Positions 12,189 to 15,494 of a stretch of DNA of 64,000 nt are shown here, one piece after another. The stretch is from the NCBI GenBank assembly GCA_029008095.1, contig JAQXJB010000004.1:1-64000 (forward strand). Direction: 5' to 3'. The notes under the pieces are model-generated. The model saw nothing but the letters and a program-made list of their open reading frames with translations, was not told where the DNA came from and searched no databases. The position numbers were made by a program, and so were the translations under genes. Within the stretch, counting starts at the first letter, position 1. Each line of letters starts with the position of its first letter. Source of the stretch: Clostridiales bacterium. GTDB taxonomy: Bacteria > Bacillota > Clostridia > Oscillospirales > Oscillospiraceae.

Positions 12189-12614
12189 ATGCAGCTTGAG
12201 GAAATCATGACAGTACACGTATCCATCAAAGGCGGCGAGGTGACCGCTTTTCAGGGCGAGGACGGCAGCGGAGTTGTAATGATACCCTTTGACGCCACCA
12301 TTGACGGCAAATATTTCACCGGCACGGTGCTGCCCGGCGGAATTGATACGCAGGTCATCGGACCAAAGGGCTATCCACACACCCTCTCCGCCCGTTACAT
12401 GGCAAAGGGCAAGGACTATACCGGCGCGGACTGCACAGTCTACATAGAGAACAACGGCGTTATCTGCAAGGACGTGGAGGGCGGCTATATGCGCACCACC
12501 CCCAAATTCGTCACCGACAGCAAGGCGCTGGACTTTCTCAACAAACAGCTCTTCTGCGGCAAGGGCGAGCCGGAGGGCGAGGGAGTCAAAATTACCCTGT
12601 ATAGAATCCTGTAA
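12189..12614 (+). CDS. DUF3237-family protein
   Basis: PGGIDTQVI...LSARYMAKGKDYTGADCTVYIENNG...TTPKFVTDS; SD ggaggcg. Confidence 0.65.
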   Translation: MQLEEIMTVHVSIKGGEVTAFQGEDGSGVVMIPFDATIDGKYFTGTVLPGGIDTQVIGPKGYPHTLSARYMAKGKDYTGADCTVYIENNGVICKDVEGGYMRTTPKFVTDSKALDFLNKQLFCGKGEPEGEGVKITLYRIL

Positions 12615-12680
12615 GGCAGCTAAAATGAATGAGTGGGTGCGCAGCCTTGGCGGAAAATCAAAAAATATTTGAACAAGCCC

Positions 12681-12709
12681 TTTACTTTTCCCAAAATATG
12701 TGATACACT
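12681..12709 (+). promoter_or_regulatory. Sigma-A type promoter for rpsO
   Basis: TTTACT-N17-TACACT about 110 nt upstream of rpsO. Confidence 0.6.
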
Positions 12710-12819
12710 TCCAAGGCTATCCCCCCGGCTTAGTCAAGGGACAAGGCCGTTTACGGCTCCCTTTCACCCCTTCACTCAGCCCCGAGGGAATATACAAAAC
12801 AAGAAAGGAAATGATTCCC

Positions 12820-13086
12820 ATGATGCTGAAAGAGCAGAAGACTGCCATCATCGAAAACAACAGAACCCACGAGACCGACACTGGTTCTCCTGAGGTTCAG
12901 ATCGCCATCCTCACCGAGCGTATCGCTCAGCTCACCGAGCACCTCAAGGTCCACAAGAAGGACAACCACTCCAGAAGAGGCCTTCTGAAGATGGTCGGTA
13001 AGCGCCGCAACCTCCTTGACTACCTCGCCAAGAAGGACATTGAGCGCTACAGAGCCTGCATCGCAAAGCTCGGTATCCGTAAGTAA
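12820..13086 (+). CDS. rpsO: 30S ribosomal protein S15
   Basis: [18 protein letters not shown]...[27 protein letters not shown] aagaaaggaa. Confidence 0.96.
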
Positions 13087-13094
13087 GCAAAGCT

Positions 13095-13128
13095 GTTTGA
13101 GGCTGTCTCGCTTATGCGGGACAGCCTC
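13095..13128 (+). terminator. Stem-loop after rpsO (no U-tract; attenuator or processing hairpin)
   Basis: gaggctgtctcgc-ttat-gcgggacagcctc. Confidence 0.45.
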
Positions 13129-13228
13129 GTAGTGCATTATGTGCGGCGCGGAATATAACGCCCGCAAGCAAAAAGAAAACCAAGTAATTACGGCACGGGT
13201 CCAACACCTATGCCTACAAAAAAAATAT

Positions 13229-13339
13229 GGGGAGAATGCCGAATCCTTTTAGCAGTTGAAAGACGTCCCTGAGCTTTTCAGAGCCGCGTTTCAAGTGCTA
13301 AACGATTTGGCTGAACATTCTCCCCAGGAAAAGGAGAAT
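13229..13339 (+). promoter_or_regulatory. Structured pnp leader with possible SD-sequestering alternative
   Basis: Nested pairs 13229-13238/13316-13325, 13239-13245/13304-13310, 13248-13254/13296-13302, 13256-13261/13289-13294; alternative 13317-13323/13333-13339. Confidence 0.6.
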
Positions 13340-13343
13340 ACCG

Positions 13344-15494
13344 ATGATAATCACCAAAAGAGAATTCACCAACGAAAAGCACTATCAAATCGATTACTGC
13401 GGCCGTCCCCTCATCATGGAGGTCGGCAAGCTGGCGGAGCTGGCTAACGCCGCCGTGCTGGTAAAGTACGGCGAGACCACCGTTCTGGCCACCGTGACCG
13501 CCTCCGCCCGTCCCAAGGACGGCATCGACTACTTCCCCCTCGCCGTAGACTTCAACGAAAAGCTCTACGCCGTCGGCCGCATCCCCGGCAGCTTTATGCG
13601 CCGCGAGGGCAAGCCCAGCCTCCCCGCTGTTTTGGCTTCCCGTCTTATCGACCGTCCCATGCGTCCCCTCTTCCCCTCCGACCTGCGCAACGATGTTGTT
13701 ATCACCTGCGACGTTCTTTCCGTTGACAGAGACTGCTCCCCCGAGATCGCCGCTATGATCGGCGCCTCCGCCGCGGTTTCCATCTCCGACGTTCCCTTCA
13801 ACGGCCCCATCGGCGGCATCGTTCTGGGCTGGGACGGCGAGAAGTATCTCTTCAATCCCACTCAGGCGGAGCGGGAGAACAACAAGATGACCGTCACCGT
13901 GGCCACCACTATGGAGAAGATCGTCATGATCGAGGCCGCTGCCGACCAGATCCCCGAGGACATCATGTACGAGGGTATCGTTCAGGCTCACGAGAAGATC
14001 AAGCCCGTTATCGAGCTCATCAACACTATGGTAGCCGAGATCGGCAAGCCCAAGTTCAGCTATGAGCACGCCGCCTTTGACGACGAGCTCTTTGAGAAGC
14101 TGGTCGCCAACGAGTTCGAAGGCATGGAATACTGCATGGACACCGACGACAAGAACGTCCGCGAGGCCCGCGTAAACGATTGGATAAGCGCGATGGAGGA
14201 AAAGTACGGCGAAGAGCACCCCGACATGATGCAGTACATGGACGAGATACTCTACAAGCTGCAGAAGAAGGTCGTTAAGAAATGGCTGCTCATGGGCAAG
14301 CGCGTTGACGGCAGAGCCATGAACGAGATCCGTCCTCTCGCCGCCGAGGTTGGCGTTATTCCGAGAGTACACGGCTCCGGTCTCTTCACCCGCGGCCAGA
14401 CCCAGGTTCTCACCATCGCCACTCTGAACACCATTGCCGCCGCCCAGAAGCTGGACACCATCTGGGAAGAGGAAACCAAGCGCTTCATGCACCACTACAA
14501 CATGCCCTCCTACTCCACCGGCGAGGCCCGCGCCAGCCGCAGCACCTCCCGCCGCGAGCAGGGACACGGCGCTCTGGTAGAGAAGGCCATCGAGCCCATC
14601 ATCCCCGATGTAGCCGATTTCCCCTATGCCATTCGCCTTGTCTCCGAGGTTCTTTCCTCCAACGGCTCCACCTCTCAGGGCTCCATCTGCGGCAGTACCC
14701 TGGCTCTCATGGACGCCGGCGTGCCCATCAAGGCTCCCGTTGCCGGTATCTCCTGCGGTCTTATCCAGGACGGCGATGATTGGACCACCTTCATCGACAT
14801 TCAGGGCGTTGAGGACTTCCACGGCGAGATGGACTTCAAGGTAGCCGGCACCAAGACCGGTATCACCGCCATCCAGATGGATCTGAAGAACGACGGTCTG
14901 AAGCACGAGATCGTTAAGAACGCATTCGAGATCACCCGCGAGGCACGCATCCAGATCCTTGACGAGATCATGCTCCCCGCTATCTCCGAGCCCCGCGCCG
15001 AGCTTTCTCCCTATGCTCCCAAGATGATAAGCATGAAGATCGCCGTGGACAAGATCCGCGAGGTCATCGGCTCCGGCGGCAAGACCATCCAGAAGATCGT
15101 TGCCGACACCGGCGCCAAGGTGGACATCGAGGACGACGGCAGCGTATTCATCTCCAGCGAGAGCATGGAGGCCTGCCTGGAAGCCAAGCGCACCATCGAG
15201 AACATCGTATTCGTTCCCGAGGTTGGCGCTATCTATCAGGGCAAGTGCGTAAGCTACCTGACCAGCAAGAAGGACGGCTCTCAGATGGGCGCGTTCATTG
15301 AGATCGTTCCCGGCAAGGACGGCCTGTGCCACATCAAGGATCTTGAGTTCAAGCGCACCGAGAAGGTGGAGGACGTGCTGAAGATCGGCGACTTGACCTG
15401 GGTAAAGGTCATCGAGATCGACGACCGCGGCCGCATCAACCTCTCCCGTAAGGACGCTTACAAGGAGCGCAAGGCTCAGGGTCTCGAGGACTGA
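13344..15494 (+). CDS. pnp: Polyribonucleotide nucleotidyltransferase (PNPase)
   Basis: Full-length PNPase with RNase PH domains, KH (VIGSGGKTIQKI) and S1 domains. Confidence 0.97.
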   Translation: MIITKREFTNEKHYQIDYCGRPLIMEVGKLAELANAAVLVKYGETTVLATVTASARPKDGIDYFPLAVDFNEKLYAVGRIPGSFMRREGKPSLPAVLASRLIDRPMRPLFPSDLRNDVVITCDVLSVDRDCSPEIAAMIGASAAVSISDVPFNGPIGGIVLGWDGEKYLFNPTQAERENNKMTVTVATTMEKIVMIEAAADQIPEDIMYEGIVQAHEKIKPVIELINTMVAEIGKPKFSYEHAAFDDELFEKLVANEFEGMEYCMDTDDKNVREARVNDWISAMEEKYGEEHPDMMQYMDEILYKLQKKVVKKWLLMGKRVDGRAMNEIRPLAAEVGVIPRVHGSGLFTRGQTQVLTIATLNTIAAAQKLDTIWEEETKRFMHHYNMPSYSTGEARASRSTSRREQGHGALVEKAIEPIIPDVADFPYAIRLVSEVLSSNGSTSQGSICGSTLALMDAGVPIKAPVAGISCGLIQDGDDWTTFIDIQGVEDFHGEMDFKVAGTKTGITAIQMDLKNDGLKHEIVKNAFEITREARIQILDEIMLPAISEPRAELSPYAPKMISMKIAVDKIREVIGSGGKTIQKIVADTGAKVDIEDDGSVFISSESMEACLEAKRTIENIVFVPEVGAIYQGKCVSYLTSKKDGSQMGAFIEIVPGKDGLCHIKDLEFKRTEKVEDVLKIGDLTWVKVIEIDDRGRINLSRKDAYKERKAQGLED

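Follow-up and report, generated by a model that had tools for sequence, protein, structure and literature searches.

The DNA analysed here (the window, 64,000 nt at its full length, from a Clostridiales bacterium) carries rpsO and pnp in tandem on the plus strand, and the gap between the two genes holds a long hairpin (Table 1). The core of this hairpin is built of two helices, TTTAGCA (13248-13254) with TGCTAAA (13296-13302) and TTGAAA (13256-13261) with TTTCAA (13289-13294), and in the apical part CTGA (13269-13272) pairs with TCAG (13278-13281). The segment ATTCTCC (13317-13323) of the outer 3' arm is the exact complement of GGAGAAT (13333-13339), which contains the Shine-Dalgarno (SD) sequence of pnp; a 9-nt loop separates the two, and the ATG follows at 13344. 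Both the helices and this perfect complementarity had been proposed in a sequence-only reading of the window. We found all the helices where that reading had placed them, folding as one hairpin (z about -6.8), and the complementarity is exact.

Table 1. Genes and leader elements at the rpsO-pnp locus of the window.
Feature	Position	Strand	Basis
rpsO (ribosomal protein S15), upstream gene	12820..13086	+	TIGR00952, 133.9 bits
Outer 5' arm GGGGAGAATG, putative anti-anti-SD, resembles SD region GGAGAAT	13229..13238	+	sequence; 5' arm x 3' arm swap test, z -24.7
Middle stem, 5' strand CCGAATC, partner 13304-13310 (one G-U)	13239..13245	+	
Conserved core, 5' strand UUUAGCA-G-UUGAAA	13248..13261	+	covariance model R2 match 13242-13308, 58.6 bits; covariation
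Apical stem-loop, sequence variable, covarying	13262..13288	+	alignment columns 22-29 with 45-52
Conserved core, 3' strand UUUCAA-G-UGCUAAA	13289..13302	+	covariation; R2 match
Middle stem, 3' strand GATTTGG	13304..13310	+	
Outer 3' arm CATTCTCCCC; putative anti-SD, 13317-13323	13316..13325	+	sequence; swap test; predicted folds
pnp SD region GGAGAAT, alternative partner of 13317-13323	13333..13339	+	
pnp (polynucleotide phosphorylase, 716 aa)	13344..15494	+	NF008805, 864 bits; TIGR03591, 849 bits

The hairpin at 13229-13325 (97 nt) folds with -46.6 kcal/mol (z -6.75; 0/200 shuffles as good) and the whole pnp leader with -60.6 kcal/mol (z -6.8; likewise matched by 0/200 shuffles). The long fold of the leader exceeds chance. 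The 7-bp SD:anti-SD hairpin taken alone reached -7.1 kcal/mol (z -1.6), 10 of 200 shuffles folded as well, and with the window as background its strength ranked 26 among 58 ORF starts. As these values are ordinary, the strength of the SD hairpin in a single sequence was dropped as evidence, and a regulatory second pairing had to be tested across species; judged from the sequences, the significance of the SD:anti-SD pairing comes only from this comparison.

Scans of positions 12600-13400 detected no sigma-70-like promoter in the rpsO-pnp gap and no G+C-rich hairpin followed by a U-run, as an intrinsic terminator or attenuator would have. After rpsO, at 13096-13129, there is a strong G+C-rich hairpin (GAGGCTGTCTCGC…GCGGGACAGCCTC) without a U-run, present also in the congeners L002 and L033, and in many relatives the hairpin at the corresponding place does carry a U-run and looks like a terminator. 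The form lacking the U-run suggests that transcription may read through into pnp in the window.

Conservation and covariation of the leader core

To describe the distribution of the leader, pnp and its upstream region were gathered from relatives (labels with L denote leaders and those with G genomes). An automatic rule recognised a shared core, TTTAGCAGTTGAA-(apical stem)-TTCAAGTGCTAAA, in 44 of 54 leaders, and two further carriers (L023, L054) were recognised by eye. The pnp leaders L017, L026, L040, L042, L052, L053 and L057 of the same order lack the core motif, apparently through losses or start mis-calls. A covariance model built from 30 leaders (R1) matched, under strict filters, in 115/245 genomes of the order and phylum-wide in only 4/300, three of which belong to the same order; a broader model from 79 sequences (R2) matched in 52/291 genomes of the class. 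Strict filters drop weak model matches, so that such presence counts are lower bounds. Near relatives had a single significant R2 place per genome, with G016 as the exception; the near-palindromic core accounts for the additional minus-strand rows, which fall on that one place again. We also scanned a collection of one genome per species (84,980 species) for the exact core pattern. Among the matches listed, at least 80, pnp follows within 200 nt in 74, and 2 further ones, at a contig end, have rpsO upstream. Named carriers include Oscillospiraceae, Flavonifractor, Pseudoflavonifractor, Intestinimonas, Oscillibacter, Butyricicoccus, Agathobaculum and Monoglobus, a group to which the window probably belongs. 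On this comparative evidence the leader is a conserved RNA lying directly upstream of pnp, usually once per genome.

Several matches were set aside. The second match of G016 lies between convergent genes and is terminator-like, and the L091 match is unrelated to pnp. In the pattern scan, 4 of the 80 matches listed are due to chance: L302 and L307 are antisense within a gene resembling translation elongation factor Ts, L312 lies inside a coding sequence and L261 beside an unrelated gene. Three sampled genomes of the order, G043, G044 and G047 (estimated completeness 85-100%), have no full PNPase match, and the core motif is absent from all three.

In the alignment of 79 sequences (A2), standard pairs filled 92.4% of the cells vs. 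72.3% in shuffles, and compensatory double changes occurred at 16 of the 21 core pairs, with 313 double-change cells vs. 97 in shuffles. The covariation score was 0.544, compared with 0.167 for shuffles and at most 0.139 for slid controls. Two pairs, A10-U64 and U15-A59, are strictly conserved and uninformative either way. Between the two core helices there is a purine mismatch (window site 13255.13295), seen as G.G in 48/79 sequences, G.A in 11/79 and A.G in 5/79, and a second one at the distal end (13262.13288) is G.G in 33/79. In the window both are G.G, on the two sides of the 6-bp UUGAAA/UUUCAA helix, an arrangement common in relatives. Within the helix the core sequence is nearly invariant, where pairing alone would permit change. 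Such strictness seems more than cleavage by RNase III would by itself demand and hints at a partner that recognises the sequence.

Two pairings of the 3' arm and predicted switching

Since the arms outside the core vary too fast for a global alignment, we used a swap test on a set of 104 dissimilar leaders: pairing energies were computed between each 3' arm (from downstream of the core, ending 20 nt ahead of the start codon) and a 20-nt SD region, either its own or that of another leader. Starts and SDs were assigned by rule, and some may be wrong (e.g., L035). Own 3'arm:SD pairs averaged -10.19 kcal/mol vs. -7.52 for swapped ones (permutation z -12.7, p at the 5e-5 floor, n = 104), and own 5'arm:3'arm pairs reached -19.2 vs. 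-11.2 kcal/mol (z -24.7, n = 104). In the same set, the control pairings gave z -2.4 for the 3' arm with the ORF start and z -0.1 for the 5' arm with the SD. Two further sets repeated the 3'arm:SD signal: 72 leaders of named genomes that are dissimilar to the original set gave z -8.3 (z -1.0 in the ORF control), and 22 members of the class that lie outside the order gave z -3.3 (z -0.6 in the control). Reducing the original set by stricter clustering to 62 or 16 leaders left z at -9.2 and -5.2, respectively.

Individual leaders illustrate the point. The 5' arm, 3' arm and SD segments of L016 (AAAAGGAGTAATCC / CTACTCCTTTT / AAAAAAGGAGTAATC), L051 (AGAAAGG / CCTTTCTT / AAGAAAGG) and L097 are all unlike those of the window, and L097 has nine consecutive pairs, GTCTTTCTC:GAGAAAGAC. 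Several leaders, e.g., L022, L044 and L048, show weak anti-SD pairing. The 5' arm also engages 80% of the 3'-arm nucleotides that pair with the SD, against 59% predicted by rotation (p 1e-14). The comparisons support a dual pairing of the 3' arm, in that evolution has preserved two pairings that exclude each other, one of them over the SD, as expected of a translational on/off switch. In 95% of leaders the 3' arm pairs more strongly with the 5' arm than with the SD, so an intact RNA would by default keep its SD free.

Absence of covariation in either helix from homologous leaders, which the sequence-only reading had named as speaking against it, was not what we observed, given double changes at 16/21 core pairs and swap tests with z -24.7 and z -12.7. 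Its proposal that the 5' arm is a copy of the SD region that titrates the anti-SD held in part: the 3' arm does co-evolve with both the 5' arm and its own SD. The cleavage and degradation of the 5' arm and their effect on translation would follow by analogy with other bacteria.

Folding of both states, which the same reading had suggested, agreed with it. Thermodynamic predictions, which ignore ribosomes and kinetics, put P(SD unpaired) at a mean of 0.47 in the whole leader and of 0.28 once the 5' half is taken away (p 5e-9); when the 3' arms come from other leaders, the decrease stops at 0.38 (p 1e-4 vs. own). For the window the value fell from 0.63 to 0.17-0.25 and returned to 0.62 when the anti-SD was removed as well. 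The effect is uneven, with a predicted accessibility drop above 0.3 in only 34% of leaders. Loss of the 5' half is predicted, according to these folds, to hide the pnp SD.

Candidate mechanism and alternative explanations

The account we lean towards is that of a cis-regulatory pnp leader in which RNase III cuts the hairpin, PNPase strips the 5' strand and the freed 3' arm covers the SD. In the intact hairpin the 3' arm (anti-SD) would be held by the 5' arm, leaving the SD free and pnp translated. RNase III would then cleave the double-stranded core, and the 5' fragment would remain annealed until PNPase, once abundant, degrades it from its 3' end. The liberated 3' arm would fold onto the SD and turn pnp translation off, and the new 5' end would be open to attack by other RNases. 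We infer the cut by RNase III, the trimming by PNPase, the effect on translation and the direction of control: if the RNA is on while whole and off after losing its 5' strand, some agent has to remove that strand, and RNase III together with PNPase fits. An RNase III gene is present in the window's own genome. RNase III is known to repress pnp in E. coli, S. coelicolor, B. burgdorferi, C. jejuni and S. pyogenes (PMC8708148), and passages of PMC6431027 interpret the S. pyogenes data as retro-regulation by PNPase through a duplex. At somewhat less than even odds, the leader might be described as a sensor of nuclease activity, the input of which is the exonucleolytic loss of one of its own strands: PNPase would erase the anti-anti-SD arm and the remaining arm would shut the ribosome-binding site, a direct feedback on translation that an order of Clostridia and part of the class would share.

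A circuit like that of E. coli, with the hairpin serving only as an RNase III site, PNPase degrading the 5' strand, the mRNA decaying faster and the anti-SD being incidental, appears unlikely to us. RNase III does target pnp leaders of other bacteria (PMC8708148; passages of PMC6431027), and the class members L196, L200 and L257 have long pnp-leader hairpins with other cores and no clear anti-SD; yet the strong co-evolution of the 3' arm with its own SD was seen in two independent sets, and decay alone needs none. We likewise give little credence to a protein-binding switch, in which the KH/S1 domains of PNPase, S15 or another protein would bind the invariant core and stabilise or open the hairpin without cleavage. 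The near-invariant helical core with its conserved purine mismatch (G.G in 48/79) and the position of rpsO immediately upstream would suit such a switch, but the hairpin is already very stable (-46.6 kcal/mol), and neither a known binding motif nor a match to an Rfam ribosomal-leader family was recognised.

Selection of the SD-sequestered form by transcripts beginning in or after the 5' arm, or by a temperature shift, is very improbable. Any transcript without the 5' arm is predicted to be sequestered, but the promoter scan showed nothing sigma-70-like in the gap from rpsO to pnp. Nor would warming promote the alternative pairing, which is far weaker than the 5'arm:3'arm duplex. Chance or a bidirectional terminator, which would account for the two weak model matches elsewhere (G016, L091), can practically be dismissed for the leader itself: the terminator scan was empty, placement is pnp-specific and the covariation refutes this explanation.

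Relation to known pnp leaders

The window shares with E. coli-type pnp autocontrol a long hairpin in the rpsO-pnp gap. The E. coli leader (Jarrige 2001; Carzaniga 2009; both cited in PMC3997798) has the same location and is likewise long and double-stranded, and strand removal by PNPase is the proposed sensor step of its autocontrol by RNase III and PNPase. However, the E. coli locus (L210) is unrelated in sequence, its best R2 score of 4.8 bits (E 0.95) giving no sign of homology, and the best SD partner there is the segment immediately upstream (-32 to -21, -6.3 kcal/mol), not the 3' arm of the hairpin. Actino-pnp (RF01688; PMC2864571, Table 1) is also a conserved cis-regulatory RNA named for pnp, but it occurs in Actinomycetales. 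An Rfam search of the window at gathering and permissive thresholds returned nothing up to E 5, Actino-pnp included, and a search (cmscan) of 20 relatives up to E 1 gave only two sub-threshold chance matches; with no RF01688 match in either, the leader is not Actino-pnp. Actino-pnp is not known to have an SD-pairing arm. The S. pyogenes pnp 5' UTR, another Gram-positive pnp leader, resembles ours by description: passages of PMC6431027 report a predicted RNase III cut, a 22-nt strand that was seen and a proposed retro-regulation by the duplex, and mention no anti-SD arm. SD-sequestering riboswitches use the same mutually exclusive anti-SD pairing, although there the input is ligand binding and here it would be strand loss.

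Literature searches of open-licence papers yielded no description of this leader RNA. Precedents exist both for alternative SD pairing and for pnp leaders processed by nucleases, so the leader is not categorically new; what would be new is that strand loss, itself a presumed step, is read out via a maintained anti-SD. PNPase autocontrol is a classic of RNA decay, and how strand removal leads to repression is best studied only in E. coli; well over 100 natural variants in an abundant gut lineage would encode a simple and testable answer, a built-in anti-SD. If true, this would add a structured RNA family outside Rfam and an example of a nuclease-driven RNA switch, and would point to repeated origins of double-stranded sensors in pnp leaders (E. 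coli, Actinomycetales, Clostridia).

The pnp leaders of other Clostridia (L194, L196, L198, L200, L203, L206, L209, L241) also form a long hairpin; its core is a different one, GUAG-NNN-GUAGAUUG…AAUCUAC-NNN-CUAC, and these leaders may be a sister family. Among them, L206 again combines a 5' arm resembling an SD (AAGGAG) with a 3' arm that reads CUCCUU. L254 and L257 have very long pnp-leader hairpins of yet another sequence, and in L257 GACCGAAGAGCAUG… pairs with …CUCUUCGGUGUC.
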